Source of the DNA: Sulfuricaulis limicola
GTDB taxonomy: Bacteria; Pseudomonadota; Gammaproteobacteria; Acidiferrobacterales; Sulfurifustaceae
Direction of reading: 5' to 3'
Length of the DNA: 64,000 nt
Assembly (NCBI RefSeq): GCF_002355735.1
Contig: NZ_AP014879.1
Location: forward strand, 310,001 to 374,000
Shown here in pieces: positions 30,271 through 48,063 of this stretch (position 1 is its first letter; each line of letters starts with the position of its first letter). Below the pieces are notes generated by a model that worked only from the letters and a program-made list of their open reading frames with translations, was not told the DNA's origin and made no database searches. The position numbers were made by a program, and so were the translations under genes.

Positions 30271-30292
30271 TGGTTGGCTCCTCCGGTCGGCG

Positions 30293-31908: not shown

Positions 31909-32880
31909 TCAGCTTTTGGCGCTGTCGCGCGACTCCAGCCCGAGCAGCAACAGCTTGGCCAGCGCCAGCACGACGAAGGTGATCATGAACAGTACCAGTC
32001 CGAGCGCGATCAACGCGGAAGTATGCATGTCGCCCACGGCTTCGTTGAATTCGTTCGCCAGCGTCGAGGCGATGGAATTTCCCGGCTCGAACAGCGAGGC
32101 GCTCAGCCGGTGGGTGTTGCCGATGACGAAGGTCACGGCCATGGTTTCGCCGAGGGCGCGTCCGAGGCCAAGGAAAATGCCGCCGACGGCGCCGACGCGC
32201 GTGTACGGCAGCACCACGTTCCACACGACTTCCCAGTGCGTGGCGCCGACGCCGTAGGCCGACTCCTTGAGAAACTTGGGTGTGGTAAGAAACACGTCGC
32301 GCATGAGCGCGGTGATAAAGGGAATGATCATGATGCCGAGAATGATGCCGGCGGGCAGCATGCCGATGCCGAGCGGTGCGCCCTGGAACAGGGCGCCGAT
32401 GAGCGCGGTGTCGCCGAATCGCGCCTGCAGCCAGGGCTGGACATGCTGCGACATGACGGGCGCGAACACGAACAGCCCCCACATGCCATAGATGATGCTG
32501 GGAATGGCCGCGAGCAGTTCGACCGCGGTGCCGATCGGGCGACGCATCCATCCCGGCGCGACCTCGGTGAGAAATACCGCGATGCCGAAGCTCATCGGCA
32601 CGGCGATAAGCAGCGCAATCAGGGAGCTGACCAGTGTCCCGTAGATGGGCACGAGCGCGCCAAATTGTTCGGTCACCGGATTCCATTCGTCGGTCACGAG
32701 GAACTTCGGGCCGAACGCGACCAGGGCCTGCCAGCCGCCGGTGAACAGGGACACGATGATCCCGCCGAGAATCACCAGCACCAGCCAGGCCGAGCCGGTG
32801 GTCAGGGCCTGGAAGAAACGGTCCATCAGGCGTTGCCGCCCGCTGATGGTGTCGGAAATGTGCGAATGGACGATGTTCAT
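31909..32880 (-). CDS. pstC: PstC, phosphate ABC transporter permease
   Basis: PstC is the first permease subunit. The 323-residue product has six membrane segments, the family motif GIWGL-like [12 protein letters not shown], and the EAA loop ([26 protein letters not shown]) followed by [11 protein letters not shown]. It lies 70 bp after pstS, and a strong hairpin sits between the two. Confidence 0.95.
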
Positions 32881-32950: not shown

Positions 32951-34027
32951 CTACTTCTGGACCATGCTGTCGGTCCAGACAGCTTTTCCGCTCGCATCCT
33001 TGATCTCGTTTTTCCACGTTTCCTCGACCAGTTTGACGACGCTGGCCGGCATGGGCACGTAATCCAGTTGCTCGGCGAGCTTGTCGCCGTGGTGATAGGC
33101 CCAGTTGAAAAACTTCAGCACCTGCTGGGCGGTTTCGTTTTTTTCCTGTTTTTTGTACACCAGGATGAACGTCGCACCCGTGATCGGCCAGCTCTTCGCG
33201 CCCGGCTGATCGGTCAGCATCAGATTGAAGCCCGGCGTGCCTTTCCAGTCGGCGCCCGCGGCCGCGGCCTGGAACGTTTCGCTGTCCGGCTTCACGAACT
33301 GGCCGGCCTTGTTCTGCAGCTGGGCAAACGTCATCCTGTTCTGCAGCGCGTAGGCATACTCGACGTAGCCGATCGCGCCCTTCAGGCGCTGCACGTACGA
33401 GGCCACACCCTCGTTGCCTTTGCCACTCACGCCGGTGGGCCAGGCGACCGAGGTGTTGTTGCCGATTTTTTCCTTGAATCCGGTGCTGACCTTGGACATA
33501 TAGTGCGTGAAGATGAAAGTAGTGCCGGAACCGTCAGCGCGCGACACGACGGTGATTTTGCTGTTCGGCAGTTTCACGCCCGGATTGAGCTTCTGGAGCG
33601 CGGCGTCATCCCAACTGGTGATCTTGCCGAGGTAAATATCGGCGAGCACCGCGCCGGTAAGTTTCAGTTCGCCCGGCTTCACGCCTTCCAGGTTCACCAC
33701 CGGCACCACGCCGCCCATGACCATGGGGAACTGCGTCAATCCGATCTCGTTGAGTTTTTCCACTGTGAGCGGCGCATCCGAGGCGCCGAAGTCCACGGTC
33801 CTGGCGGTGATCTGCTTGATGCCGCCGCCCGAGCCGATGGACTGGTAATTCATGCTGATGCCGGTCTTGGCCTTGTAGGCCTCGGCCCATTTGGCATAGA
33901 TCGGGTAAGGGAAGGTCGCGCCCGCGCCGTTGATGGTTTCGGCCGCCTGCGTGAAACCGGCGGTCATGCCGAGCGCCATCGCCGCGGCAGTCACTGTGGC
34001 TTTAAATCGTTTGGGAAAGATACGCAT
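32951..34027 (-). CDS. pstS: PstS, periplasmic phosphate-binding protein
   Basis: PstS captures phosphate in the periplasm for PstCAB. The product has a Sec signal peptide ending at TQAA and the mature start ETINGAGATFPYPIYAKWAEAY. Phosphate-binding motifs include SIGSGGGIKQI, DFGASDAPL and VVSRADGSGTTFIFT. The total is about 358 residues. ATG 34027 or ATG 34036 can both be used; 34027 has GGAG 11 nt upstream and gives a normal signal peptide. A PHO box lies about 63 bp upstream at 34090-34107. Confidence 0.95.
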   Translation of the reverse strand: MRIFPKRFKATVTAAAMALGMTAGFTQAAETINGAGATFPYPIYAKWAEAYKAKTGISMNYQSIGSGGGIKQITARTVDFGASDAPLTVEKLNEIGLTQFPMVMGGVVPVVNLEGVKPGELKLTGAVLADIYLGKITSWDDAALQKLNPGVKLPNSKITVVSRADGSGTTFIFTHYMSKVSTGFKEKIGNNTSVAWPTGVSGKGNEGVASYVQRLKGAIGYVEYAYALQNRMTFAQLQNKAGQFVKPDSETFQAAAAGADWKGTPGFNLMLTDQPGAKSWPITGATFILVYKKQEKNETAQQVLKFFNWAYHHGDKLAEQLDYVPMPASVVKLVEETWKNEIKDASGKAVWTDSMVQK

Positions 34028-34089
34028 TTTTGTCATGTCTCCATAATGTCGATAGTCGCTGAATGCGGGGCGCATCATGCCCGGCGAAT

Positions 34090-34300: not shown

Positions 34301-34900
34301 TTAACTGCCGGAAGCCAGTTCCTTGGCGCTGATCTTCCCGCCGCGCCGGGATTCAAACCAGTTGCCGATAAGGAAACCGCCCGCCGCCATGCCGGCCAGC
34401 AGCAGCAGCCACAGCCAGGTCGGCAGACCGGTCAGCCCGGAGAGGGTCTGGCCCGCCGGCCCCTTGCCCGCCTGATATACCGTCTGCAGCGAGTCGTACG
34501 ACAAGCTGAACACCGTCATGCCTATCATCATGCCGAGCATGAAGAACAGGGCGTCGAGACGGCCGGCGAACAGGCCGACCACGGAAGTGCCGGGGCAGTA
34601 TCCGCCGATGGCCATGCCCGCGCCCAGCAGCGCGCCACCCAGCGCCATGGCCCAGAAGAACATGGTGGGGATTTTCAGGGCGTCGAAGCGCAGCCACCCG
34701 GCTACGTCGAACAGCCACAAGCCGATCGCCGCCACGACGATGGCGGTGAACATGACCCGGAACACGGTCCAGTCGCGCAGCGCGAACTGGGCGGTCAGCT
34801 TGCGCGGGCTGCTGAGCCCCGCGGACTCGATGAAATAGCCGAACAGGACGCCGGCCAGCACAAGAAGCGGGATGCCCGGATTTTCGAATGGAAAGTTCAT
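34301..34900 (-). CDS. YeeE/YedE sulfur transporter, second half
   Basis: The 199-residue product has about five membrane segments and the signature GGYCPGTSVVG, whose cysteine is essential for thiosulfate or sulfur-compound uptake in YeeE/TsuA and related proteins. In fused members both halves are in one chain; here they are separate genes overlapping by 4 bp (ATGA). The ATG at 34900 begins NFPFENPGIPLL. Substrate is not provable from sequence; thiosulfate or another small sulfur anion is likely. Confidence 0.85.
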   Translation of the reverse strand: MNFPFENPGIPLLVLAGVLFGYFIESAGLSSPRKLTAQFALRDWTVFRVMFTAIVVAAIGLWLFDVAGWLRFDALKIPTMFFWAMALGGALLGAGMAIGGYCPGTSVVGLFAGRLDALFFMLGMMIGMTVFSLSYDSLQTVYQAGKGPAGQTLSGLTGLPTWLWLLLLAGMAAGGFLIGNWFESRRGGKISAKELASGS

Positions 34901-35415
34901 TGCCAGATCCTCCCTGCCACGGCCGCTACCAGCAGTCCGGCGGCGAAAAATGCGATCAGAAAGACGAAGGACGCTACCGCCAGCACCGCGCCGCCCGACA
35001 GGCCCAGGCTGCTGGTGCAACCACCCGCGAGCGATGCGCCGAAGCCGCTAAGTATGCCGCCGCCCACGGCAAACCCCATGCGCGCGCCCGCGCTTGTGTG
35101 CGGTCCGCGTTCGATCTTGAAGCGAAAGCGCCCCGCAATGAGGCTGCCCGCCAGGCCGCCAATGGCCGCGCCGGCGAGTTCCCAGCTGAGCCAGGAGTTC
35201 AGCGGATGCGTCGCACCCAGGTAGTTGCCGAGATAGGAATTCATCTCGGTCCAGTCGGGCGCCGCCAGAGTTCCCAGCCAGGCCAGCACATTGGTGAAGA
35301 AGCCGCTCGCGCCGAGGCCGTGCCCGGAGATCAGAAACATCCCCATCAGTGTCAGACCCAGCCCCACGCCGGCGGCCAATGGCGGGAAAAACTCCCGCGG
35401 TTTATGTTCAGTCAC
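34897..35415 (-). CDS. YeeE/YedE sulfur transporter, first half
   Basis: The 172-residue product has about four membrane segments and the matching signature GASLAGGCTSSLGLSGGAVLA, with the conserved cysteine. It is the partner of the next gene, which it overlaps by 4 bp. It starts with TEHKPREFFPPLAAG. Two FNR sites lie within 140 bp upstream, suggesting low-oxygen induction. Confidence 0.85.
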   Translation of the reverse strand: MTEHKPREFFPPLAAGVGLGLTLMGMFLISGHGLGASGFFTNVLAWLGTLAAPDWTEMNSYLGNYLGATHPLNSWLSWELAGAAIGGLAGSLIAGRFRFKIERGPHTSAGARMGFAVGGGILSGFGASLAGGCTSSLGLSGGAVLAVASFVFLIAFFAAGLLVAAVAGRIWQ

Positions 35416-35590: not shown

Positions 35591-36712
35591 TTATCGGGCG
35601 ATGTGGATGGCCGGGCAGCATTCAGCGTAACCGGGAATACCCGGCCTGGCTTCGTACCAGCCGCGGCTGGCGTTGACGATTTTGACGACGGAGAGCATGA
35701 CTGGCACTTCGATCAGCACTCCCACCACTGTCGCCAGCGCCGCGCCGGACTGGAAGCCGAACAGACTGATGGCGGCGGCCACGGCGAGTTCGAAGAAGTT
35801 GCTGGCCCCGATCAGCGCCGAGGGACCGGCCACGCAATGCGCCACACGGAAGCGGCGGTTGAGCAGGTAGGCCAGCCCGGAGTTGAAATACACCTGGATC
35901 AGGATCGGCACCGCCAGCAGGGCGATGACCAGCGGCTGGGCCAGGATTTGCTCGCCCTGGAAGCCGAACAGCAGCACCAGCGTCGCCAGCAGCGCCGCCA
36001 GCGACGGCGCGTGCAGGCGCGCGAGCATGCGTTCCAGGGCCGCGGCCCCGCCGCGCCGGAGCAGTTGCGTACGCCAAGCCTGCGCCGCCACCACCGGGAT
36101 GACTATATATAGTACGACCGACAGCAGCAGGGTGTCCCATGGCACCGTGATCGCCGACAGCCCCAGCAGCAGGCCCACGATCGGCGCGAAGCCGAAAATC
36201 ATGATCGTGTCATTCAGCGCCACCTGCGTGAGCGTGAAATTCGGCTCGCCGCGGGACAATCGGCTCCACACGAACACCATGGCGGTGCAGGGCGCGGCCG
36301 CCAGCAGGATCAGGCCGGCGACATAGGAATCGAGCTGCTCGGCCGGCAGCCAGCCGGCGAAGGCGTGGCGGATGAACACCCAGGCGAGCAGCGCCATCGA
36401 GAACGGCTTGACGCCCCAGTTGATGAACAGCGTCACGCCCACGCCCTTCCAGTGACGGCGCACCTCGCGCAGTGCGCCGAAGTCCACCTTGAGCAGCATC
36501 GGGATGATCATCAGCCAGATCAGCAGCGCCACCGGCAGGTTCACGCGCGCCAGTTCCATTTTGCCGATCGCCTGGAACGGCCCCGGGAACAGATGCCCGA
36601 GAGCCACGCCCGCGGCGATGCAGGCGAACACCCACAGCGTCAGGTAGCGCTCGAACGCGCCCATGGGATTGCCCGCGGCACGCTTGCCGGTGACTTCGCA
36701 TTGCGCGCTCAT
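35591..36712 (-). CDS. acr3: Acr3-type arsenite efflux permease
   Basis: Acr3 exports arsenite. The 373-residue product has ten predicted membrane segments and the conserved transport motifs AAAPCTAMVFVWS (with the essential Cys) and ALIGASNFFELAVAAA. It ends in a short cysteine-rich tail (ECCPAIHIAR), which is not seen in all homologues. Its start overlaps the arsC stop by 4 bp, so the two are co-translated. It is the last gene of the run that begins at arsR (43506). Confidence 0.93.
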   Translation of the reverse strand: MSAQCEVTGKRAAGNPMGAFERYLTLWVFACIAAGVALGHLFPGPFQAIGKMELARVNLPVALLIWLMIIPMLLKVDFGALREVRRHWKGVGVTLFINWGVKPFSMALLAWVFIRHAFAGWLPAEQLDSYVAGLILLAAAPCTAMVFVWSRLSRGEPNFTLTQVALNDTIMIFGFAPIVGLLLGLSAITVPWDTLLLSVVLYIVIPVVAAQAWRTQLLRRGGAAALERMLARLHAPSLAALLATLVLLFGFQGEQILAQPLVIALLAVPILIQVYFNSGLAYLLNRRFRVAHCVAGPSALIGASNFFELAVAAAISLFGFQSGAALATVVGVLIEVPVMLSVVKIVNASRGWYEARPGIPGYAECCPAIHIAR

Positions 36713-37137
36713 GGCTTCAGCCCGCCGATCAGATTCTCGACCCGGCCTTTGACCTCATCGCGTGTGGCGCGGAACTTTTTCATGATCTCGTCTTCGGTGC
36801 CGGTCGCTTTCGCCGGGTCTTCCAGCGGCCAGTGTTTTTTCTGCACGCCGGGCGGCAAAACGGGGCAATGTTCGTCGGCATGACCGCAGACGGTCACGAC
36901 CAGATCGGCCGACGCCAGCATCTCCGGTGTCACGCGCGTGGATTCCTGGTGCGAGATGTCCACGCCGGCCTCGCGCATGACCGCGATGGCGCGCGGGTTC
37001 TTGCCATGCGCCTCGATGCCGGCGGACATGGCCTCGACCCGGTCCCGGCCCAGATGATTGGCCCAGCCCTCGGCCATCTGCGAGCGGCAGGAATTGCCGG
37101 TGCAGAGAAACAGGATTTTTGTCTTGCGTTGGTGCAT
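36709..37137 (-). CDS. arsC: ArsC, thioredoxin/LMW-PTP-type arsenate reductase
   Basis: ArsC reduces arsenate to arsenite for export. The 142-residue product has the LMW-phosphatase loop FLCTGNSCRSQMAEG near the N-terminus and the resolving cysteines VCGHADEHCPV, which identify the thioredoxin-coupled type. The ATG at 37137 has GAGGAACGC just before it. The alternative ATG at 37161 overlaps the upstream cytochrome stop. A thioredoxin-like gene in the same run (41278) could be an electron donor. Confidence 0.93.
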   Translation of the reverse strand: MHQRKTKILFLCTGNSCRSQMAEGWANHLGRDRVEAMSAGIEAHGKNPRAIAVMREAGVDISHQESTRVTPEMLASADLVVTVCGHADEHCPVLPPGVQKKHWPLEDPAKATGTEDEIMKKFRATRDEVKGRVENLIGGLKP

Positions 37138-37157
37138 GCGTTCCTCGTTTAGTGATG

Positions 37158-37595
37158 TCATTTCAGCCGGTAGCCGGCATGGCAGGCGACGCATTGCTGC
37201 GTCACTTCCGACAGCGCCTGCAACGCCGGGCGCAAATCGCGGCGTACGCCCGCTTCTTCGGCCACGCGCGCGAAGCGGCTCGCGGCGCGGTGCATATTGG
37301 TCCCGATGTCCTGCATCGGCTTCGGCATGTAAGGGGCCATGTGCCCGGCGCCGTGCGACTCGAGCGAACTCATGCCGATACGTTGCTCGGCGATCTGGGC
37401 CGCGCGCCCGGCCTCGTCGCGCGCCAGCGCGGCCTGGATCTCGTGCAGCGCCGCGAGATGGTCGCGCATGTTCGCCAGCATGTGCGCGCGCATCGGCGGC
37501 GGCAGTTCGATCGCCACGCGCGCGTCCGGCACGGCCAAAGCGGTGGGCCCGAAGAACAGGGCAGCGAGCGCCATGGTGCTGATGATTCTTTTCAT
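37158..37595 (-). CDS. periplasmic cytochrome c'-like protein
   Basis: The 145-residue product has a Sec signal peptide (about 1-21, ending ALA) and a helical domain with CVACH at 135-139, near the C-terminus. This is the same layout as the cytochrome at 131-613, and the haem-site residues (QCVACHAGYR versus KCVACHAAYQ) suggest a shared origin. It lies between the rhodanese and arsC genes with small gaps. It might pass electrons in arsenic or sulfur chemistry; this is inferred from position only. Confidence 0.85.
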   Translation of the reverse strand: MKRIISTMALAALFFGPTALAVPDARVAIELPPPMRAHMLANMRDHLAALHEIQAALARDEAGRAAQIAEQRIGMSSLESHGAGHMAPYMPKPMQDIGTNMHRAASRFARVAEEAGVRRDLRPALQALSEVTQQCVACHAGYRLK

Positions 37596-37614
37596 GTGAT
37601 CTTGTCTCCTGGCT

Positions 37615-38547
37615 TCACAGATCGAAATCTCCATCGTAGGGTTTGTCGCCCACGACCACCGGCAGCGACAGATTATTGCCCCAGTCGTCCCAGCCGCCGT
37701 TGTACACGCGCACGTCACGATAGCCGAGGGTCTTTAGTTGCAGCCAGGCGAGGGTGGAACGGAAGCCGTCGTGGCAGTAGGCGTAGACGGTTTTGTCTTT
37801 CGGCACATCGCGGTAGAGCGCCGCCAGTTCGTCCGCTGCTTTCCAGGCCTGGTTCTGGCCATCCACGCCTTCTAGACTCACGATATTGATTGCTCCGGGA
37901 ATGTGTCCACCCTGGATCGAGTGCTGCACCAGCTTGCCGCTGTACATGTCGCGCGGGCGCGCGTCGAGCAGCACGATGCCGGGATCGCGCCGCGCCACCA
38001 CGTCGCTGTAGACGCCGGTCCACTCGACCGCCATTTTGCGATTGGCCGGCTTGAGCGTGACGTTGCCGCGCGGGCGCTTAGCCGGCTCTTTCGACAGCTT
38101 GTTGAACGCGGTCCAGCCGAGGGCGCCGCCGTTGAGGATTTTCACGCGCCGCATGTCGAAGCCATACAGCTCGAGCAGATAATAGAGTCGCGAGGCGAGC
38201 GCCGTCATCGAGTCGTCGTAGATCACGAGGGTCGAGTCGTTGTTGACGCCCCAGGCGCGCAGCGTCGCCTGGAACGCCTCGCGCACGGGAAAGCGCATGG
38301 TCGGATGTCCGAAGTTGTCGCCCAGATCCTTGAAGCGCTGCACCTGCACCGCGCCCGGAATGTGCCCGACCGTGGAGTAACGATGCGGGTGGTAACGCAC
38401 CTCCAGCACCACGAGTTTCGGATCCTGAATGTGCTGTTCCAGCCATTCGGCGTTTACCAGGAAATCCGCCGCCCGGACGCCGGCCGGCGCCAGCAGGCAC
38501 AGCAGCGCGACGATCAGAAATACATTTGTTCGGAATGTTGTTTTCAC
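37615..38547 (-). CDS. periplasmic two-domain sulfurtransferase (rhodanese)
   Basis: The 310-residue product has a signal peptide (about 1-27, ending VRA) and two rhodanese domains. The N-terminal domain lacks the active cysteine; the C-terminal domain has CHDGFRS with Cys258. This is the arrangement of thiosulfate sulfurtransferases. The GTG at 38547 follows GGAGG and overlaps the stop of the ATP-grasp gene by 4 bp. Sulfane sulfur handling in the periplasm is likely; whether it deals with thioarsenic is unknown. Confidence 0.88.
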   Translation of the reverse strand: MKTTFRTNVFLIVALLCLLAPAGVRAADFLVNAEWLEQHIQDPKLVVLEVRYHPHRYSTVGHIPGAVQVQRFKDLGDNFGHPTMRFPVREAFQATLRAWGVNNDSTLVIYDDSMTALASRLYYLLELYGFDMRRVKILNGGALGWTAFNKLSKEPAKRPRGNVTLKPANRKMAVEWTGVYSDVVARRDPGIVLLDARPRDMYSGKLVQHSIQGGHIPGAINIVSLEGVDGQNQAWKAADELAALYRDVPKDKTVYAYCHDGFRSTLAWLQLKTLGYRDVRVYNGGWDDWGNNLSLPVVVGDKPYDGDFDL

Positions 38548-39917
38548 GCGCCCTCCGGACAGTTCCTCGTCGCCTGCATCCAGGCCGCGAGGGTAGTCAG
38601 GTTCTCCGGCACCACCACGACCGGTGCGAAGCCGCCGCCGGGGGTACGGAAGTTCGTGGTCTGGCCCTGGTACAGGCGCGCGGCCAGCGCCTGGATCGCG
38701 CCGTCGTAGACATAGGCGCGGATGTCGAGCTTGAGATCCTGGGTGTCGCCATTCACCTGCAAGGCGCGTTCGCTCGGCGGCACGGTTTCCTGGGCCACGT
38801 AATCCGCGCCGAGAATCTCCGACCACACGCGCTTGGTGAGTTTGTCGCCGCGGTAGGCGGCCTTGCTGCCGTAACCCGCCGCCGGCTTGAAGAAATAACG
38901 CCGACGTTCGGCCCATAACGCCTCGGCGTGTGCGGCGTCCACAGCCACGGTCCGGGGCACGCCGCGCATCAACGTTTCGATCGTTGTCGCTGGCAGATCG
39001 AGGGCGCGCAGGAAATCCGGGTCCGAAAGCGACACCAGGTTGCGCTTGTCGGCATACAGCGCGTGCGCGCGTGGGTGCGGCGTGAGCACCACCGCGCCGG
39101 CTTCATAGGCCGCACGCAGGGCGGCGTGCTCCGGTGCCGCGAGATAAAAATCCGTCAGGCGGTTATAGACCAGGTCGATGTGTTGCGCGCCGTGCCACAG
39201 CGCGCTGTCGCGCCAGACCAGCTCGCGCGCATCTGCAATTACAGCTTCGAGGTTGTTGCGCTCGAACAAGGCGCGGAACAGCAGGAACTCCGGATACAGA
39301 TATTGTTCCGCGGGCGCGTCGTCCACGATGGCGATGCGCACGAGCGGCTGATCGCCGCGGCTGCGGCGCCACTCGGCCCGGAACATTTCAACGATATTGT
39401 TCTCGATCTGTCCGGTATTTCCGGACGATGCCACGAACGGTTCGGCCTCGGTACAGCAGGCATGCTGCGCCCGCGTCAGCGCCGCCACCAGCAGCGCCCC
39501 GCCGGCATTGGTGTTGATCTCGATCAGCCGCGGCCCTCCGGGATCGAGATGGAAATCGTAACCCAGGAACACGCCGCGCGGGCCGGGGTCGAGGCGCGCG
39601 ATGCCCGGAGTGCGCGCGAGTATTTGCTCCTGGTACCCGGGCAGGCGCACGACGGATTCGATGGCCTGGATGGTCGCGTCCATGGCGCGCGCCTGGGCGG
39701 CCGACACGAACACCGGCGTGGCTGAAAAAGCGTGCGGACGTTCGCTCCAGGGCGGTTGCGCCAGCGCCGCCGCGTCCGGCGCCAGACCCAGCGCCTGCGC
39801 CAGGCGCGGGGTGTCGAGCGTGCGGCACAGGCAATCGCGGTTGAGTTGCGCGGCCAGGTCGGGCGCGGTATCGCCGTTCATTATCGTGGCCGGAGATGTT
39901 TTCGATATATCGTTCAT
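38544..39917 (-). CDS. ATP-grasp-like ligase of unknown substrate
   Basis: The 457-residue product has ATP-grasp-like motifs: LIEINTNAGGALL, a metal-binding type loop, near residues 155-167; a glycine-rich ATP loop FFKPAAGYGSKAA near 345-357; and DIRAYVYDG near the end. The order (metal loop before the ATP loop) fits the circularly permuted ATP-grasp enzymes related to glutathionylspermidine synthase. No signal peptide is seen. It overlaps both the OsmC gene and the rhodanese gene by 4 bp. Such enzymes join a carboxylate to an amine or thiol; the substrate is unknown. Confidence 0.7.
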   Translation of the reverse strand: MNDISKTSPATIMNGDTAPDLAAQLNRDCLCRTLDTPRLAQALGLAPDAAALAQPPWSERPHAFSATPVFVSAAQARAMDATIQAIESVVRLPGYQEQILARTPGIARLDPGPRGVFLGYDFHLDPGGPRLIEINTNAGGALLVAALTRAQHACCTEAEPFVASSGNTGQIENNIVEMFRAEWRRSRGDQPLVRIAIVDDAPAEQYLYPEFLLFRALFERNNLEAVIADARELVWRDSALWHGAQHIDLVYNRLTDFYLAAPEHAALRAAYEAGAVVLTPHPRAHALYADKRNLVSLSDPDFLRALDLPATTIETLMRGVPRTVAVDAAHAEALWAERRRYFFKPAAGYGSKAAYRGDKLTKRVWSEILGADYVAQETVPPSERALQVNGDTQDLKLDIRAYVYDGAIQALAARLYQGQTTNFRTPGGGFAPVVVVPENLTTLAAWMQATRNCPEGA

Positions 39918-40330
39918 GACTTTTTCCCGGCGGCGCGCCGGATAGTGCCGGTGATGGTGGTGCCGGCCGCCAGCGTGTTGTACACCGTGCCGTACTTCAT
40001 TACGTTCTGGTGCAGCAACTCCAGGCGCCGGTCGTTCTCGTCGGTATCCACGGTCAGCGTGTACTCGACGCTGGCCATTTTGGGCGGGGAGTCCTGGCGC
40101 ACGCCGCGCAACGTAATCTCGACGCCACGGAGCTTGAAATGCAGCATCGGTGTGACCCGCTCGATGCCCTTGATCATGCACCCGGCGAGCGCGGCCAGCA
40201 GCAGCTCGGCCGGGTTGAAGGCATCCATGCGCCCGTCGACGTCGGTATCGAGCAACAGCTCCGCTTCCTTGCAGGAGGCGAGGCTCCCGTGCGCGTCCAG
40301 TCGTTCAGCGTTGACACCGTATTCAAGCAT
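39914..40330 (-). CDS. OsmC-family protein lacking the second catalytic cysteine
   Basis: The 138-residue product has the OsmC fold (NPAELLLAALAGCMIKGIERV) with Cys51 in the peroxidatic position and an extra Cys20. Where OsmC and Ohr peroxidases have a resolving cysteine, this protein reads MKYGTVYNTL, with no Cys. It is therefore unlikely to be a standard two-Cys peroxidase and may bind a thiol or sulfane group instead. Its stop overlaps the ATP-grasp start. Confidence 0.85.
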   Translation of the reverse strand: MLEYGVNAERLDAHGSLASCKEAELLLDTDVDGRMDAFNPAELLLAALAGCMIKGIERVTPMLHFKLRGVEITLRGVRQDSPPKMASVEYTLTVDTDENDRRLELLHQNVMKYGTVYNTLAAGTTITGTIRRAAGKKS

Positions 40331-40372
40331 GATGATGTGCCTCGTGTTTCGTCCAGGTTTGTCGGCCGTGCC

Positions 40373-41209
40373 CTAACGGACAAGGACCCCGTGGCGCATC
40401 TTTGCCGCTACGGCCGGCGCTTCGTCGGCCGCAAGAATTTGCTGCACCGTGCTTCTCAGCCCAGTGATGAGATAGGTTCCGGGCGGCAGCGGGGTAAACT
40501 CCTGCCCACCGGCCAGGATCAGCGGAAGCTTGTAGTCCTCGGGATCACGGGTGCCGTGCAGCCGCCCATGCCCGGCGTGATCGCTCGTTACCACGATCAG
40601 GTGCGCGCCGCGTTTGCTGACGGCCTCGAACAGCGGCGCCAGCGCCATGTCGATGTAAGAAAGCTCGTCGAGATATTCCGGCGAGAGCCAGCCGTAGTCC
40701 GTGCCCGCGTTTTCGAGCCCGCTCACGTGCAGGAAAACAAAACGCCTGCCGTCCTTTGCGAAGAAGGCAAGGGTCTGGTCGACGCCGTCGTCCCGCGCCA
40801 GCGCATGCTTGTCCACCGCCTTGCTGACCAGATAGCCGAGTTTCGGCTTGGCGTAATAGAAGGCCGTGCGGAATCCGCGCCGCTTGGCGTCGTCAAACAA
40901 CGTCGGTTTCGCCACCGTCGGCATCCCCGGCTTCCAGTTATTGTCGGTTTTGCCGTTTTCCTCCGGCGTGAGTCCCGTCAGCATCGCTGTGTGCGCGATC
41001 AGGGTCTTCGGCGGGTCGACGCTCTTTCCTTCCAGGGTGTAACGCCCCGGCCGCATCAGGGCGTGCAGCGTCGGCGAGGTCTTTTTGCTTAGCGCGTCGG
41101 GATGCAGGGCATCGATCGAAACGATGAGCACGGTCTCGATATCGCGGGCAAACCCCGGCGCGGCGAACAGCAAACCGAGCAACAGGATCCCGAACGTACT
41201 CTTTGCCAT
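40373..41209 (-). CDS. periplasmic alkaline-phosphatase-superfamily hydrolase
   Basis: The 278-residue product has a signal peptide (ending FAR) and an alkaline phosphatase/nucleotide pyrophosphatase core: VSIDALHPDAL at the start, PPKTLIAHTAMLTG with the likely Thr nucleophile, HVSGLENAGTDYG, and VTSDHAGHG with the metal-binding Asp-His. It is smaller than usual phosphodiesterases. The ATG at 41209 is preceded by GGAGTGCGG. It lies between a thioredoxin-like gene and OsmC. Substrate unknown; a phosphonate, sulfate or phosphate ester are all possible. Confidence 0.8.
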   Translation of the reverse strand: MAKSTFGILLLGLLFAAPGFARDIETVLIVSIDALHPDALSKKTSPTLHALMRPGRYTLEGKSVDPPKTLIAHTAMLTGLTPEENGKTDNNWKPGMPTVAKPTLFDDAKRRGFRTAFYYAKPKLGYLVSKAVDKHALARDDGVDQTLAFFAKDGRRFVFLHVSGLENAGTDYGWLSPEYLDELSYIDMALAPLFEAVSKRGAHLIVVTSDHAGHGRLHGTRDPEDYKLPLILAGGQEFTPLPPGTYLITGLRSTVQQILAADEAPAVAAKMRHGVLVR

Positions 41210-41277
41210 GACCGCACTCCTCATCCTGGTTGATGCATGACGCGAACCCGGAGTGACGCCAGACATGGCGTCCCGGT

Positions 41278-41508
41278 TCACAGCCAGTTCTCCACCTTTT
41301 TCATGTCCGGCACGCCGCCGGCGTGCACCACCTTGCCGTCGATCACCACGCCGGGCGTGGACATGACGCCATAGGCCATGATGTCGGCGATGTTCTCGAC
41401 CTTTTCCAGATCGACCGCGACGCCCCTGGCGCGCGCCGCGTCCTCGATGAGTTTCACGGTGGCCTTGCAGTTGGCGCAGCCGGTGCCGAGTACCTTGATG
41501 TGTTTCAT
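41278..41508 (-). CDS. small thioredoxin-like protein (CXXC)
   Basis: The 76-residue product resembles the redox-active disulfide (MTH895) family. It begins KHIKVLGTGCANCKAT with a CXXC at about 11-14, has TPGVVID with the cis-proline, and ends soon after. It has no signal peptide. Such genes often accompany DUF318/ArsP permeases, as here (42152-43111). It may reduce ArsC or handle a bound metal. Confidence 0.88.
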   Translation of the reverse strand: MKHIKVLGTGCANCKATVKLIEDAARARGVAVDLEKVENIADIMAYGVMSTPGVVIDGKVVHAGGVPDMKKVENWL

Positions 41509-41544
41509 GTCGTGCCTCCTGGCCGTGCCTGAATATTCCGGCGT

Positions 41545-41835
41545 TCAGAATTTGTAAAAATGCGTGTTGAGATAGGCGGTGACATCGTCGACATCCTGTT
41601 CCGACAAGGTCGGGTTGTAGTAATCGCCCCAGCGCGCCACCTCCTGGCGCAACGCCGACAGTGACTTGATCTTGCGCTGCGGCGAGGTGTACAGACTGGT
41701 GCCGTGGCAGGGCAGGCACACTGCGTGCAGCTGCTCGCCGCGCGCCGGGTCACCGGCTCCGGTGGCGGAGCAGCCGGTCGCCGCCAAGCCGAGCACGAGC
41801 AGCGCCGCTGCTGTATGTCGTGCCAAAGTGCTCAT
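41545..41835 (-). CDS. small periplasmic c-type cytochrome
   Basis: The 96-residue product has a signal sequence with a possible lipobox-like ATGC at residues 19-22 and one haem motif, CLPCH (40-44), followed by a short class I cytochrome c domain. No obvious distal methionine appears after the motif except by position, so axial ligation is uncertain. It overlaps the upstream gene by 4 bp (ATGA). Confidence 0.85.
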   Translation of the reverse strand: MSTLARHTAAALLVLGLAATGCSATGAGDPARGEQLHAVCLPCHGTSLYTSPQRKIKSLSALRQEVARWGDYYNPTLSEQDVDDVTAYLNTHFYKF

Positions 41836-42155
41836 GGCGCAGCTCCCCCGCGCAACCGCTGACGCTGGCGTTGTGGTTCGCATTGCAACGCATCGATTCC
41901 GAGCGCGCGCGCCCGAGCCTGCATTTCGTTCCGGTGCGCCTGCCGCACCGCGGCCCGTTCCTGCGGCGTGCGCGTCGCGCGCATGCGCGCGCGGTAGGCC
42001 TCGCGTTCCACCGGGGTCATCAGGTCGGCGCAGTAGATCAGCTCGCGCGGCTCGGCGGCGGTTGCCGGCGCCGGATCCGTGCCCTGTGCCCGGACCGGCA
42101 ACATCCACAACGCGACCATGGCGAGGCCGCACCCAACGGCAGTCAGCTTGTTCAT
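41832..42155 (-). CDS. hypothetical secreted protein (107 aa)
   Basis: The 107-residue product has a signal peptide (about 1-23, ending VRA), one cysteine in LIYCADLM and another near the end (LQCEPQ), and a long Arg/Ala/Glu/Gln-rich helix. I recognise no family. It overlaps both neighbours by 4 bp, so it is translated with the permease and the cytochrome. It could be a periplasmic partner of the permease. Confidence 0.8.
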   Translation of the reverse strand: MNKLTAVGCGLAMVALWMLPVRAQGTDPAPATAAEPRELIYCADLMTPVEREAYRARMRATRTPQERAAVRQAHRNEMQARARALGIDALQCEPQRQRQRLRGGAAP

Positions 42156-43111
42156 GACGTTACCCCCAACTGGTTGAACAGCAGGCCCACGATCACGAAG
42201 GCCGTGGCCAAGTAGCCGGTGAACACCCCGAGCAACGGCCACTTCGCGACCTTGCGCAGGATCACCATTTCCGGCAGCGACAGCGCCGTTACCGCCATCA
42301 TGAAGGCCAGCACGGTGCCGAGCGGTACACCCTTTTGCAGCAGCACTTCGGCGATCGGGATGATGCCGACAGCGTCGGAATAGAGTGGCACCCCGACCGC
42401 CACGGCGCCGACGACCGAGAGGAATCCGCCATCGCCGGCGATACGCGCCACGAAATCCTGCGGCACGTAACCGTGAATCAGGGCACCGACGCCGACGCCG
42501 ATCAGGACAAACTTCCAGATGCGGCCGACGATCTCGCGCACCTGCGCCAAGGCGTATTCATGCCGGCCCTTGAGCGAGACGTCAGGTGCTGCGCGTTGCG
42601 CCTCGCCCACGTGGATTTTCCAGACGTATTCTTCGACCCAGCGTTCGGGGCGAAAGCGCTCGATCACGAAGCCGCCGACGAAGGCCACGGTCAGGCCGGT
42701 GGCGACATAGATCGCGGTCGTCTGCCAGCCAATCACCGATGCCAGCACCACGATCGCGACCTCGTTGATCATCGGGCTCGCGATCAGGAACGACAGCGTT
42801 ACGCCCAGAGGGATGCCGGCCTCGACGAAACCGATGAACAGCGGAATCGACGAGCAGGAGCAGAACGGCGTCACCGCCCCGAGCCCGACCGCCATGAAAC
42901 GCGCCGAGACGTTCGAGCGCGAGCGGATGAACTCGCGCACCCGTTCCGGTGCCAGCATGGCGCGCAGCAGGCCCATGACGTAAATCACCAGCGTCAGCAG
43001 CACCAGGATCTTGGTTACATCCATGACGAAGAAATGCAGCGCCGCGCCGAGAGCCGTGTCCCGCATGCCGGCGAGGTCGTAGACGATCCAGTTGGCGAGG
43101 GCTTCGAACAT
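42152..43111 (-). CDS. DUF318/ArsP_1-family permease
   Basis: The 319-residue product has about eight membrane segments and the signature TPFCSCSSIPLFIGF, with two cysteines that bind soft ligands in ArsP-type permeases, repeated in part as GVPLYSDAVGIIPI. ArsP exports trivalent methyl- or aromatic arsenicals in some bacteria; other members' substrates are unknown. It follows arsR by 44 bp, so an arsenic-related substrate is a fair inference. Confidence 0.85.
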   Translation of the reverse strand: MFEALANWIVYDLAGMRDTALGAALHFFVMDVTKILVLLTLVIYVMGLLRAMLAPERVREFIRSRSNVSARFMAVGLGAVTPFCSCSSIPLFIGFVEAGIPLGVTLSFLIASPMINEVAIVVLASVIGWQTTAIYVATGLTVAFVGGFVIERFRPERWVEEYVWKIHVGEAQRAAPDVSLKGRHEYALAQVREIVGRIWKFVLIGVGVGALIHGYVPQDFVARIAGDGGFLSVVGAVAVGVPLYSDAVGIIPIAEVLLQKGVPLGTVLAFMMAVTALSLPEMVILRKVAKWPLLGVFTGYLATAFVIVGLLFNQLGVTS

Positions 43112-43155
43112 GATTCATCCGGCGAAATCCTTGTTACATCGGTTGACGACGGTCG

Positions 43156-43506
43156 TCAGGCGCAGCAGCGCACCGGCGGCCGGGTCGGCGCGCCGCGCAG
43201 GCGCTTGCGGTCCTGCGCCAAGGGTTTGGCCGCGGCATTGGCCTGGCTCGCGGTGGTCAGAATTTCGCGTGACCAGGCCGGTAAATCAGGATTGAGACGA
43301 TAGTGGATCCACAGTCCCTCGCGCCGGTCGCTGACGATCCCGGCCTCGCGCAGCGTGGCCAGATGACGCGAGACCTTGGGCTGGGATTCCTTGAGTGCAT
43401 GGGTCAGTTCGCAGACACACAACTCGCCTTCCGTGGCCAGCAGCAGCAGGCAACGCAAACGCGTCGGGTCGGCCAGGAGCGGGAAGAAGTTTTCGACGGT
43501 AACCAT
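43156..43506 (-). CDS. arsR: ArsR-type arsenite-responsive repressor
   Basis: The 116-residue product is a winged-helix ArsR/SmtB repressor. ELCVCEL holds Cys30 and Cys32 at the As(III) site of the E. coli ArsR type, and the protein ends with a CC pair that might add a third ligand. QPKVSRHLATLREAGIV is the recognition helix. The ATG at 43506 is chosen because an upstream ATG at 43542 would lie within the palindromic operator. It is the first gene of a run that ends with arsC and acr3. Confidence 0.92.
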   Translation of the reverse strand: MVTVENFFPLLADPTRLRCLLLLATEGELCVCELTHALKESQPKVSRHLATLREAGIVSDRREGLWIHYRLNPDLPAWSREILTTASQANAAAKPLAQDRKRLRGAPTRPPVRCCA

Positions 43507-43514
43507 CAACCTAA

Positions 43515-43550
43515 ATATATGCCCGAACATATATATGTTCAAGCATATAT
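43515..43550. promoter_or_regulatory. palindromic operator upstream of arsR
   Basis: A 36-bp palindrome is centred on GAACATATATATGTTC (43525-43540) with outer arms ATATATGC (43515-43522) and GCATATAT (43543-43550); only two base pairs are mismatched. It lies 9 bp upstream of the arsR start, where an autoregulatory ArsR site is expected. AT-rich hexamers inside it could serve as the -10 box. Confidence 0.8.
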
Positions 43551-43650: not shown

Positions 43651-44112
43651 CTAACGTGCGTCGCCAGTGGTTTCGGGCGAGAAGCGCGTCGTCACGATGC
43701 GCAGTCCGACCAGTACCAGGATGACACCGAGCCCGAGCAGCACCTTCTCGGGCGCGTACTCGCGGAACCACAGGCCCATGAGCTCACCGATCAGCACCAC
43801 CAGCGCGGTGTCGAGGATGAAGGTGACGCGCACGCGCCCGAGCTTGAGGTAGGACTGCAGGGTGCGTATGACTTCGAGCAGCGCCAGCATGATCAGCGTA
43901 TCGATGATGGCGCGCTCGGCGACGCTGGCCCAGCCGCTCGCCAGCACCTGGCGCAGGTCGAGGACGAGCGCAATCACGCCCGCGCCCATCCAGGCGCACA
44001 GCGCGATAATCGCGAGTCCCGTAAGCGAGCGCACCAGCACGAGGTAAAACCGGTCGGCAAGCTGAAGCCAACGATCGCCATCGTCGGCTGTCGACACGCG
44101 CTCTGTTGGCAT
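43651..44112 (-). CDS. psiE: PsiE-family phosphate-starvation membrane protein
   Basis: The 153-residue product has four predicted membrane segments and resembles PsiE, a membrane protein of unknown activity induced by phosphate starvation in E. coli. Motifs include DRFYLVLVRSLTG and LVVLIGELMGLWFREY. The ATG at 44112 begins PTERVSTADD; an upstream in-frame ATG at 44217 is possible. Phosphate control is suggested by three 11-bp repeats upstream and by the phoX-phoR-phoB neighbourhood. Confidence 0.8.
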   Translation of the reverse strand: MPTERVSTADDGDRWLQLADRFYLVLVRSLTGLAIIALCAWMGAGVIALVLDLRQVLASGWASVAERAIIDTLIMLALLEVIRTLQSYLKLGRVRVTFILDTALVVLIGELMGLWFREYAPEKVLLGLGVILVLVGLRIVTTRFSPETTGDAR

Positions 44113-44221
44113 GGTGGATGTTTCCTTGTCACCACGGCTGTCCGGTTCTGACAGAGAGTTGAGTTCGGGTCTCGTGAATTTTTGCGCCAAGTTGTGCATG
44201 GATGGAATATTAGTCATGGCT

Positions 44222-44392: not shown

Positions 44393-45904
44393 TTACCACC
44401 ACTGCCAGGCATCCTTCTTGCCGCGGAGCTTGAAGCCGGTGATCTTCAGCACATCGTCGGTCGGATAGCCGTCAGCCGCCGGCATGTTGGCGTCGTTGCT
44501 GTGCTGGATCGAGACATACGCGGTCGTGCCGGAGGCGTCGAACAGAAAGCCGGTCGGTTCGGCCGAGCTGTCCTTCACCGACAGTATTTTCACGCAGCCG
44601 TCAGTCTTGATGTCGCGGTCCATGCCGTCCGGCAGGCAGGCGAAAATGTCGCCGTTGTCGTGATCCTCGATCACGTAGACGTTGCCGGTTTTGGGCTGGA
44701 ACTCGAGATTGTCGAAGGAGTTGAAATCGGTATCGCCTTCGACAAAGCGGTTCACCGCCACCGTGCGCTGGGTATTGCTGGCGGTGAGCGGAGCGCGGTC
44801 CACGCCGCAAACGACTTCGGCGTAATTCGCGCCTTCCTCGTTGCCGGTGTTGGTCCAGCAGAAGCGTACTGCTTCCAGGTTGAGCTCGTCCTGGTACGCC
44901 GGATCCTGGTGCAGGTCCTCTGGCCGGTAGTAACCGGTGGCGCCGGCAGAATCAGCATCACTGCGCGCGGTGGCGGCGTTGACCGCTACCCACGCGGCGT
45001 TGCCGATTTCGCAACCCTGACCGTATTGCTGGTTGTTGTTCACGCAGGAGACCTGCATGGCATACACCGATCCGGCCGCGAGAGGCGATTCGGAGAGGTT
45101 GGCGAGGGGTCCCGATACCAGGCGCGGCATGGCCGGCACGAACTTGAAAATTGCGCCGCCATCGCGGTCGGCGCCACCCGTGCCCGGACGCAGCTCGTCG
45201 CCGGCGATCACCACGCCGGTCGGCAGCACCGCGAGGCCTTCCCAGGCCATCGTCGGCAGCGCCGTGCGCTTGGCGATGTTGGCCGGGTCGGTCACCGTGC
45301 CGCTGGCGCGGTCGATCACGGTCTGCTCGGTCACGCCGAGCGGGTTGAATATCTCGTAGGCGCCGCCGCTCGAGGTTTCCTCGGTGGCGAGGATCGTGCC
45401 CCAGGCCGTGGCGCGGATGCCGTCGCAACTGGTCATCCCGCGCAGGATGGTCTCGACCGCGCCGTTATCGAGATTAATACGCTGTACCGACGGGTTGAGC
45501 TTGTCGCCGGCGTCGTACACGTTTGGCATACCGCCATCGATCAGGAACTGGCGTCCGCCTTCGATGCAGCTGATGAGATGGGTCGGATTTTGCGCCGGAT
45601 AAAACGCCATCATGTCGGTGGCATTGGCGGCCTCGCGCGTCAGGTATTCCACTTTCAGGCCATGGGCGACCAGTGCCTGGTCGTAGGGTGGCTGAAGCGG
45701 TGTGCGGTACGGTCCGACCGTGGGCGGGGCCGAGGCTTCGAGCGGCTTTTCCACCCCGAACAGCTTTTCGGACTGTGCCTTGAGAAGTTGCTCGACCTTG
45801 AGGCCGAAATCGGCGTCATCGTCGGCCTGGGCCGCGAACGGGGCGAATGCCGTGGCCATGGCTACGGCAAACATGCAGGGTTTCAACAGCGGTACATGTT
45901 TCAT
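44393..45904 (-). CDS. phoX: PhoX-family (DUF839) alkaline phosphatase
   Basis: PhoX enzymes are Ca/Fe-dependent periplasmic phosphatases that release phosphate from organic esters. The 503-residue product belongs to the DUF839/PhoX beta-propeller family, with stretches such as AWEGLAVLPTGVVIAGDELRPG and EDHDNGDIFACLPDG. The signal peptide (ending AAQA) lacks a twin arginine, unlike many PhoX proteins, so it may use Sec. It has its own PHO box upstream (45981-45998) and lies just after phoR. This supports the phosphatase role. Confidence 0.82.
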   Translation of the reverse strand: MKHVPLLKPCMFAVAMATAFAPFAAQADDDADFGLKVEQLLKAQSEKLFGVEKPLEASAPPTVGPYRTPLQPPYDQALVAHGLKVEYLTREAANATDMMAFYPAQNPTHLISCIEGGRQFLIDGGMPNVYDAGDKLNPSVQRINLDNGAVETILRGMTSCDGIRATAWGTILATEETSSGGAYEIFNPLGVTEQTVIDRASGTVTDPANIAKRTALPTMAWEGLAVLPTGVVIAGDELRPGTGGADRDGGAIFKFVPAMPRLVSGPLANLSESPLAAGSVYAMQVSCVNNNQQYGQGCEIGNAAWVAVNAATARSDADSAGATGYYRPEDLHQDPAYQDELNLEAVRFCWTNTGNEEGANYAEVVCGVDRAPLTASNTQRTVAVNRFVEGDTDFNSFDNLEFQPKTGNVYVIEDHDNGDIFACLPDGMDRDIKTDGCVKILSVKDSSAEPTGFLFDASGTTAYVSIQHSNDANMPAADGYPTDDVLKITGFKLRGKKDAWQWW

Positions 45905-46002: not shown

Positions 46003-47325
46003 TCAGGCGATGCCGGAAACGGGGTGGTCGACGCGCCGTGCGCGGGCGGTGGGAAAGACGCAGGTGAAGGTGCTGCCGACCCCGGGTTCGCTCTCGATAT
46101 CGAGACGGGCATCGTGACGCAACAACACGTGCTTGACGATGGACAGGCCGAGGCCGGTGCCGCCCGAAGCGCGCGAGCGCGCCGTGTCCACGCGGTAGAA
46201 GCGCTCCGTGAGATGCGGGACGTGCTCGAGCGCAATGCCTTCGCCGGTGTCGCTGACGCTGAAACAGGCGCTCCCGTCCGGCGCCGCCTTCCAGGCGAGC
46301 GCGATGCGGCCGCCGGCCGGGGTGTAGCGCACGGCGTTATTGACCAGGTTGGAAAACGCGCTGAGCAGCTCCTCGCGGCTTCCAAGCAGTCGCAGCGATT
46401 TGTCAGTCTCGACGGTGATGACATGATGCTGCTCGCCGCTCAGCAGCTCCGCCTGTTCCTTGAGCCCGGCCAGCAGCGCCGTTACGTCCACGGTTTCGTC
46501 GTGGGTGCGCGGCGCCGCGGTCTCCAGTTTCGACAGCATGAGCAGATCGTCCACCAGCCGCTGCATGCGTACGGCCTGTTCCTGCATGGTCGCAAGGTAT
46601 TTTTTCAGATCCTCCATGCGTATCTGGTCCATATGGCCCAGGGTCTCGACGAAACCGCCGAGCACGGTGAGCGGCGTGCGCAATTCGTGCGAGACGTTGG
46701 CGACGAAATGGCGGCGCATCTGTTCGAGGCGCGCGAGGCGTGTGACGTCGCGTCCGATCACGAGCTTTTGCAGGCTGCCGAACGGGGTGACCTGGATCGA
46801 GAGCTTGATTTCACTGTTTTCCGGAGAGTCGATCTCCAGCAGTTCGGAATAGTCGCCGTGTTGCAGGTATTGAACGAAATCGGGATCGCGCAGCAGGTTG
46901 AACAGGCGCGTGCCGGCATCGCGCGGGTAGCGGATGCCGAACAGGCGTCCGGCGGAGGGGTTGGCCCATTCGATATCGCTTTCCTGCGACAGGATGACCA
47001 TCGCATCCGGCATGGCCGCGGCGGCGCTCTGGAACCGGGTCAGCATGTCGTTCAGCCGGTCCTCGCGGTTTTCCGTCTGCTTCATGAGCTGGCGGATTTC
47101 GTCGAACACGTCGCCCCACAGACCCCCGGCATCGGGAATTTCAGCCTGCTGGCGGTTACGCAGCCAGTGCCGCAGCCGCTGCAAATGGCGCAGCGTGAAA
47201 AAGATGTAGAGACCGAAACCGATGGCGGCGATGAGGAAAAGGCGGCCGGTGATGAGACCGAGCACGAGGCTGGTGATGGCGATGCCAACCAGAATCCAGA
47301 TTTCACGCCAGATGGTTTGCGGCAC
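46003..47325 (-). CDS. phoR: PhoR, phosphate-sensing histidine kinase
   Basis: PhoR phosphorylates PhoB when phosphate is scarce. The 440-residue product has two closely spaced N-terminal membrane segments (about 9-45), a PAS domain (about 95-195), the HisKA box SHELRTPLT with His213, and the HATPase motifs NLVNNAVRYTP, SDTGEGIALEH and GTGLGLSIVKH. There is no large periplasmic domain, which is normal for PhoR. It starts 3 bp after phoB. Confidence 0.94.
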   Translation of the reverse strand: MPQTIWREIWILVGIAITSLVLGLITGRLFLIAAIGFGLYIFFTLRHLQRLRHWLRNRQQAEIPDAGGLWGDVFDEIRQLMKQTENREDRLNDMLTRFQSAAAAMPDAMVILSQESDIEWANPSAGRLFGIRYPRDAGTRLFNLLRDPDFVQYLQHGDYSELLEIDSPENSEIKLSIQVTPFGSLQKLVIGRDVTRLARLEQMRRHFVANVSHELRTPLTVLGGFVETLGHMDQIRMEDLKKYLATMQEQAVRMQRLVDDLLMLSKLETAAPRTHDETVDVTALLAGLKEQAELLSGEQHHVITVETDKSLRLLGSREELLSAFSNLVNNAVRYTPAGGRIALAWKAAPDGSACFSVSDTGEGIALEHVPHLTERFYRVDTARSRASGGTGLGLSIVKHVLLRHDARLDIESEPGVGSTFTCVFPTARARRVDHPVSGIA

Positions 47326-48018: not shown

Positions 48019-48063
48019 GCGGGGAATTGCCGGGCCTTGTGTCCCTCGGGGTGGCGCCATTTC

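Follow-up and report, generated by a model that had tools for sequence, protein, structure and literature searches.

Accounts of bacterial metal resistance centre on four mechanisms: efflux, reduction, oxidation and methylation. As an addition to ars operons, folE has been reported (PMC9144182). An ATP-grasp protein other than the one treated here appears in work concerned with algae (PMC7826186), and PMC6205960, which treats ArsP in general, mentions neither OsmC nor rhodanese nor ATP-grasp. Here, we analysed an arsR-led arsenic operon in Sulfuricaulis limicola (genome of 2,864,672 bases, one contig), located in a 64-kb window, i.e. the whole stretch of 64,000 nucleotides at positions 310,001 to 374,000 of contig NZ_AP014879.1, to which our coordinates refer. 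From arsR to acr3, twelve open reading frames (ORFs), all in minus orientation, occupy positions 43506 to 35591, and one of them encodes an uncharacterised ATP-grasp ligase. We tentatively read this locus as an As(III)-inducible resistance operon in the phosphate regulon, in which the ligase would make a small, probably thiol-bearing ligand.

A ligase family with four conserved cysteines and a predicted glutathione-synthetase fold

The window ligase matched no Pfam, NCBIfam or PADLOC model above cut-off. Its Pfam match, CP_ATPgrasp_2, was sub-threshold (E 0.0028). This was also the best Pfam match among 29 family members, 7 of which had it (E 0.00024 at best), and GSP_synth (PF03738) was not among the 13 Pfam families matched by any of these 29 members at E <= 1. 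When solved structures were searched by sequence, the single protein gave one chance-level match and a 29-row profile none. A back-translated search of genome contigs with the single protein found no ligase relative; a profile search of genome contigs returned at least 586 confirmed ligase stretches, 80 of which were taken. Because the window ligase has no Pfam or NCBIfam match above cut-off and each of the 20 plasmid records listed (of 32) labels the family member as 'hypothetical protein', name-based resistance surveys would miss it.

We modelled the ligase with AlphaFold2 from 65 sequences (mean pLDDT 90, pTM 0.90). Foldseek placed the human, plant and yeast glutathione synthetases at the top, soon followed by the E. 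coli glutathionylspermidine synthetase (E 6.6e-16 to ~1e-12), and VIA-align gave Z values of 22-28 over 320-393 residues for the glutathione synthetase/glutathionylspermidine synthase group. The match spans model residues 20-436, with Z up to 27.9, and corresponds to the full-length fold; the next structural matches were a putative gamma-glutamylcysteine synthetase (Z 13.5) and proteins of the LysX, RimK and Ddl types (8-10). The ATP-grasp label is retained because the predicted structure confirms the sub-threshold Pfam match. On the strength of this model, the protein would be a member of a new family with the glutathione-synthetase fold, and it is very probably an ATP-dependent carboxylate-amine ligase.

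Seven residues, D121, E133, N135, K344, R400, R414 and Q419, do not vary across an alignment of 93 family members with 19 distant relatives, and N422 is kept in 111 of these 112 sequences. They follow the ATP-grasp order of D, E-x-N, the Lys of the KP motif, the Q hinge, D-x-R and the terminal N, an order that by eye agrees with that of a GSP_synth protein, and we take them to have the corresponding catalytic roles. In glutathionylspermidine synthase, the Arg of R-x-D is the substrate-carboxylate Arg. By a residue correspondence with a GSP_synth protein made by eye, this position is a glycine in the ligase (G119), and it is Gly in 90 of the 93 members. A profile comparison of the ligase family with one GSP_synth protein found no match, so that the kinship of the two rests on fold and not on sequence. 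Searching for the GSH_synth_ATP family gave no match anywhere, the controls being silent too. No GSP_synth match was found in the host genome, which encodes its own GshB; the ligase is therefore dispensable for ordinary glutathione.

What sets the family apart is a CxC and a CC motif. Among the 93 members, C29 is present in 90, C31 in 92, C154 in 93 and C155 in 90, and 88 have all four cysteines. The 19 distant relatives share 36-43% identity with the window ligase and are those whose loci were retrieved, among roughly 110 genomes with such matches. One of them has CxC (within an unverified N-terminal stretch, 14 being without that part), one has a lone Cys at 154, and none has CC. This largely cysteine-less group (L178-L196) is common in some proteobacterial families: of 299 genomes, 122 gave a match, and it accounts for the majority of these. 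We propose that the four cysteines bind a metal or metalloid and tune the ligase. Among the papers listed by our search of the open-access literature (titles and the beginnings of abstracts), we found no account of the ligase family, its four-cysteine signature or its placement in metal islands.

Genomic linkage and composition of the operon

Is the ligase generally linked to metal resistance? Of 129 ligase loci, 79 bore one or more metal or arsenic markers; of 20 control stretches of 19 kb, taken at random from ten genomes, 1 did. The marker panel was drawn partly from plasmid ligase loci and is therefore biased for the 16 plasmids among the 129, of which 15 matched. With plasmids excluded, markers were found in 64 of 113 ligase loci, the window included. 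Sixteen of the 32 ligase plasmid records, chosen from the top 20, were viewed. As read by eye, 14 of them have genes for resistance to copper, mercury or zinc, or for RND efflux, within the viewed stretch, among them mer on pMR68, cop on pHAL1 and cueR with a P-type ATPase on pCB4; the cases of KO116 and Phenylobacterium are weaker. In a 93-row quick tree, acr3 or arsJ lies within 4 kb of the ligase in 23 rows, which needs at least 17 changes, equal to the lowest value among 100 shuffles (mean 20.7). The linkage of the ligase to metal genes is recurrent and labile, and not one inherited accident.

Some loci have further neighbours. pSCD of Sulfuricella (L036, L155) also has RND systems, Suf-like genes and the operon for an ATP synthase; a gene for a CDF transporter stands before the pair of ligase and amidotransferase genes in L107 and L131; and in L076, L111, L115, L122, L139 and L145, a dinG-like gene before the ligase and/or mobB/moeA-like genes after it, labelled by eye, mark a stable housekeeping position. 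The quick tree had set the window ligase apart from those of its congeners, and a replacement was considered on this basis; it was dropped, since the approximately unbiased (AU) test did not reject a joint clade (p 0.55).

The operon and its surroundings comprise the following genes, all on the minus strand.

43156..43506, minus: arsR, 116 aa, ELCVCEL motif; PRK10141 and HTH_metalloreg models above cut-off
42152..43111, minus: ArsP_1 permease (arsP), FCSC motif; Pfam E 3.9e-68
41832..42155, minus: small exported protein (sec), 107 aa, without family match
41545..41835, minus: small c-type cytochrome (cytc, CLPCH), weakly SorB-like, below cut-off
41278..41508, minus: MTH895/ArsE thioredoxin-like protein (trx), CxxC (Thioredoxin_3); TIGR00412 above cut-off
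40373..41209, minus: exported type I phosphodiesterase-like hydrolase; alternative start GTG 41281
39914..40330, minus: OsmC family protein (osmC), one conserved Cys (C51), by Pfam and alignment
38544..39917, minus: uncharacterised ATP-grasp ligase, CxC (C29, C31) and CC (C154, C155), by predicted structure and alignment
37615..38547, minus: exported two-domain rhodanese, active-site Cys in the second domain (YCHDGFRS), by Pfam/NCBIfam
37158..37595, minus: cytochrome c'-like protein (cyt c', CVACH), Pfam below cut-off, without a solved relative by sequence
36709..37137, minus: arsC, thioredoxin-type arsenate reductase (LMWPc-type), TIGR02691 above cut-off; alternative start 37161
35591..36712, minus: acr3 arsenite efflux transporter, TIGR00832 above cut-off
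34897..35415, minus: YeeE/YedE half transporter (Sulf_transp), 175 bp beyond acr3
34301..34900, minus: second YeeE/YedE half (Sulf_transp / DUF6691), 4-bp overlap with the first half
32951..34078, minus: pstS
31909-32880 and 31060-31905, minus: two ABC permeases downstream of pstS
29554-30300, minus: phoU
43651-44217, minus: psiE-like
44393-45904, minus: phoX-like
46003-47325, minus: phoR
47329-48060, minus: OmpR-type response regulator, likely phoB

A preliminary description of this DNA had reported the twelve-gene single-strand block, and all of its ORFs were recovered. Its count of six 4-bp overlaps with gaps under 70 bp holds within the choice of starts: the chosen starts give five such overlaps (arsP/sec, sec/cytc, osmC/ligase, ligase/rhodanese and arsC/acr3), earlier starts would add two more (trx/hydrolase and cyt c'/arsC), and the non-overlapping junctions of the arsR-acr3 block measure 19 to 68 bp. 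The gene identities were likewise borne out by Pfam and NCBIfam, those of the cytochromes by CXXCH and the ATP-grasp label by structure; both cytochromes scored below the Pfam cut-off, yet CXXCH is present in each. All assignable parts of the block belong to known superfamilies. The split YeeE/YedE pair downstream of acr3 is possibly an extension of the operon. Genes of the pho regulon flank the arsenic operon on both sides (27636-48060), including a PHO4 transporter after the phoU-side genes; the arsenic operon is embedded in a phosphate regulon. A second ArsR-family regulator lies elsewhere in the window, at ~57739-57873 on the plus strand (G000 367739-367873).

Several of the accessory proteins could be characterised by alignment. 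The permease belongs to the ArsP_1 family, with both cysteines in 16 of 17 aligned sequences and one gap, and its matches to the SaoE and SO_0444 models, which are for other substrates, are below cut-off; as in ArsP methylarsenite permeases, its function may be the efflux of trivalent organoarsenicals. The thioredoxin belongs to the MTH895/ArsE family, C11 and C14 being present in 21 of 21 aligned sequences. In the hydrolase, compared with a solved relative, Thr is kept, Val-Asp is changed to Leu-Glu and Asp-His to Asp-Tyr. The 107-aa exported protein has what we take to be a resemblance to Spy/ZraP-type periplasmic proteins.

Comparison with relatives separates the operon into two parts. In a genome of the same genus (L051), arsR-arsP-trx-osmC-ligase-rhodanese-cyt c'-arsC-acr3-pstS is found at 78-96% identity, and because this order is kept, the gene order is more than chance; the exported protein, the small cytochrome and the hydrolase are without a match in L051. 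Three loci from the host's taxonomic family (L052, L060, L043) hold arsR-ligase-arsC-acr3, which in L052 and L060 is followed by pstS, and at the L053 locus arsC was not seen. In five same-order genomes, ligase and arsC directly precede pstS, acr3 not being adjacent. When 274 genomes were drawn across the class, 10 had a ligase match, as did 22 of 60 relatives, and in 13 of these 22 it adjoins arsC and/or acr3, a fragment in G280 included; among the remaining relatives, the ligase locus of L064, L066, L068 and L070 is at or near a contig edge. This fragment, in the same genus (L069, 9199 onward), lies between arsR and arsC, comprises no more than 53 residues from the C-terminal part of the ligase and is probably a decaying copy. 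Within the 60 relatives, the ligase (E <= 1e-10) and acr3 (E <= 1e-40) each occur in 22 and together in 16 (Fisher p 1.7e-5, counted by hand and with kinship ignored).

The operon is a composite, in which a clade core of arsR, ligase, arsC and acr3 beside pst has received an inserted cassette. The arsR-led gene block of the preliminary description stands, its descent as a single unit does not; middle genes were found beside ars genes at several other loci, a test set beforehand that could have refuted their association.

The cassette consists of the ArsP-type permease, the ArsE-type thioredoxin, the one-cysteine OsmC and often a rhodanese, and it recurs near ars or metal genes in other proteobacteria. 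We collected 17 OsmC loci (6 hand-chosen of 29 plasmid records, 10 phylum-sample genomes and G311): the fetched stretch contains an ArsP-type permease in 8 and an ArsE-type thioredoxin in 9, other companions being CDF (6), rhodanese (5), MBL-fold hydrolase (2) and P-type ATPase (2). The cassette lies near arsenic genes in NT-26, Comamonas sp. C11 and Neotabrizicola, whereas the permease is missing in Agrobacterium CFBP6624 and Sulfuricella, where osmC is surrounded by metal or efflux genes of other kinds. Canonical OsmC/Ohr hydroperoxide reductases have a second conserved Cys. Here, C51 is kept in 20 of 20 aligned sequences having that region, the C-terminal motif is KYGT(V/I)xNT or close, and the two-cysteine arrangement is absent; because the second cysteine is missing, a classical peroxidase role is unlikely. 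Together with the exported rhodanese, the cassette is probably a second, separately mobile set that handles the sulfur or thiol side of the stress. PADLOC did not match this OsmC either, and in the literature search described above we found no account of a permease-thioredoxin-OsmC cassette in arsenic resistance.

Upstream of arsR, a perfect 16-bp palindrome, GAACATATATATGTTC, lies at 43525..43540 (minus strand), one of nine such perfect palindromes in the window. It overlaps a sigma-70-like promoter match (TTGAAC-17-TATATT, 43542 to 43514), five promoter-like sites having been found in the scanned stretch where 2.1 were expected. An AT-rich footprint is nearly identical upstream of arsR in L051, L052, L053 and L060, and weaker in L043 and L069. 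The palindrome is likely the ArsR operator. Comparison with five related loci favours an arsR start at 43506 over one at 43542. In gene content, with a CVC-motif ArsR, an arsenate reductase, Acr3 and an upstream operator candidate, the locus corresponds to an arsenite-type ars operon, and the ELCVCEL motif is presumably of the arsenite-sensing kind. We infer that the block is co-transcribed and its expression induced by arsenite.

Proposed function and alternative explanations

We propose the following division of labour. ArsR would release the promoter just upstream of arsR; arsenate, entering via phosphate transport, would be reduced by ArsC to arsenite, for which the thioredoxin could serve ArsC, and Acr3 would expel the arsenite. 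The ligase would supply a glutathione- or dipeptide-like ligand that holds As(III) until efflux, and in other islands it might play the same part for Cu(I), Hg(II) or Zn/Cd. Either an organic arsenical or a conjugate may be the cargo of the permease, and the exported rhodanese, cytochromes and hydrolase would act in the periplasm. Our view of the product as a thiol or metal ligand, which we hold somewhat more loosely still, is a conjecture from context and cysteines. A thiol-conjugated arsenical had been suggested in the preliminary description; the ligase it called for is present, and the glutathione-synthetase fold lends the conjugate itself indirect support. It is unlikely, in our view, that the system is a full bacterial counterpart of phytochelatin, i.e. 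a mobile module in which a four-cysteine-gated ligase makes a new thiol peptide for As, Cu, Hg and Zn/Cd. A dedicated ligase family common to arsenic, copper, mercury and zinc islands would add small-ligand synthesis to bacterial metal resistance.

Besides the bias of the marker panel, several observations weigh against our main reading. In the most even sample (class and phylum draws), 7 of 18 loci have a metal marker and 2 of 18 an arsenic marker (7/18 vs 1/20 controls, Fisher p 0.016), and the neighbours in this sample include the housekeeping genes bipA, queF, starch synthase and helicase. By labels assigned by eye, dinG-like genes occur in seven and moeA-like genes in five of 110 ligase operons. 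G119, in place of Arg, suggests that glutathione itself may not be the substrate. Moreover, 13 of the 110 loci have a TIGR03104-type N-acetylglutaminylglutamine amidotransferase in the ligase operon, after the ligase in L040, L075, L091, L094, L099, L107, L110, L129, L131, L135 and L140 and before it in L066 and L067; the two copies scanned (L040, L140) are both far above the TIGR03104 cut-off. Such a partner points to a peptide product and not to a thiol, and with the housekeeping neighbours it leaves room for a peptide without metal binding. The ligase might then make an N-acetylglutaminylglutamine-type amidated peptide, a protectant unrelated to metals. We regard this as quite improbable for the family, since 97 of the 110 operons show no amidotransferase gene, the partners in the window clade are arsC, acr3 and pst, and four cysteines mark the family.

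Another explanation is that ordinary metal- and sulfur-stress genes accumulated in an island behind one arsenic promoter, each acting alone. The non-core genes do vary in close relatives, G279 having no match for the exported protein, the small cytochrome and the hydrolase, while G275, G277 and G207 show arsR-ligase-arsC-acr3 without the cassette, with cyt c' beyond acr3 in G207; furthermore, the cassette occurs without a ligase nearby and the ligase without ars genes. We nevertheless consider accretion somewhat unlikely, since pSCD carries relatives of five extra genes within ~26 kb (ligase 62%, YeeE halves 52% and 70%, hydrolase 73%, OsmC ~65%) and the ligase-arsC pairing persists across several genera. 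The permease-thioredoxin-OsmC set might also be a cassette for the detoxification of reactive sulfur (persulfide) that came incidentally under ArsR. YeeE/YedE with a persulfide dioxygenase forms a known BigR-controlled sulfur-detoxification operon (PMC7315123), and elsewhere OsmC stands with a rhodanese, an MBL-fold hydrolase, or CcdA, thioredoxin and TauE. Against this idea, one scanned MBL protein is nearest to SoxH-related quinoprotein-relay hydrolases and below their cut-off, and the window ArsR, with what we take to be an arsenite-type Cys motif, scores 47.8 bits against the BigR cut-off of 155, outside the BigR regulators; we judge it unlikely. Still less probable, and in our estimate very much so, is the thioarsenate handling suggested in the preliminary description, by which rhodanese, thioredoxin and OsmC would add or remove sulfur on arsenic. 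To our knowledge, such a pathway has no marker gene. The rhodanese and the split YeeE/YedE pair in the block speak for it, as does a rhodanese-containing operon by arx/ars in Thioalkalivibrio jannaschii that is strongly induced by arsenite (PMC6620896). The block contains no thioarsenate-specific gene, however, and the rhodanese, present in the operon of one other examined relative only (G279), lies with the cytochromes outside the conserved core; relatives of OsmC also adjoin non-arsenic metal genes, the ligase also occurs in copper, mercury and zinc islands, and none of the papers listed in our literature search named such a pathway in its title or the beginning of its abstract.

Comparison with described systems

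The nearest described enzymes to the ligase are the eukaryotic-type glutathione synthetases (human GSS, 2hgs; soybean homoglutathione synthetase, 3kal), with which it has in common the whole predicted fold, the catalytic pattern and its order, and a length of ~450 residues. It differs from them in being 11-16% identical, without a sequence-profile match, in its four extra conserved cysteines and in a host that has GshB. Glutathionylspermidine synthetase, YgiC, YjfC and the E-64 ligase Cp1B also have this fold (Z 23.6 to 27.9), Cp1B belonging to a described peptide-like biosynthetic pathway (PMC12568646); in contrast to this group, the window ligase has no Pfam GSP_synth match, Gly for the Arg of R-x-D and another genomic context.

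The operon as a whole combines features of several systems. With the BigR-type sulfur-detoxification operon it has in common a split YeeE/YedE, an ArsR-family regulator and sulfur enzymes in related cassettes, whereas the window has an arsenite-type ArsR and arsenic genes, and no dioxygenase among the genes identified. In Nitratiruptor, the SO_0444 Cu/Zn efflux permease is listed beside a cytochrome c and a winged-helix regulator, and an ATP-grasp protein elsewhere in the same table is also induced, its membership in the family of the window ligase not being established (PMC10092412); the window permease belongs to the same superfamily and falls below the SO_0444 cut-off. With the classical ars operons (arsR-arsC-acr3; arsP), finally, it shares the regulator, the reductase, the efflux pump and the ArsP-type permease, and it differs from them in the ligase within its core, the pho-regulon setting and the further accessory genes.

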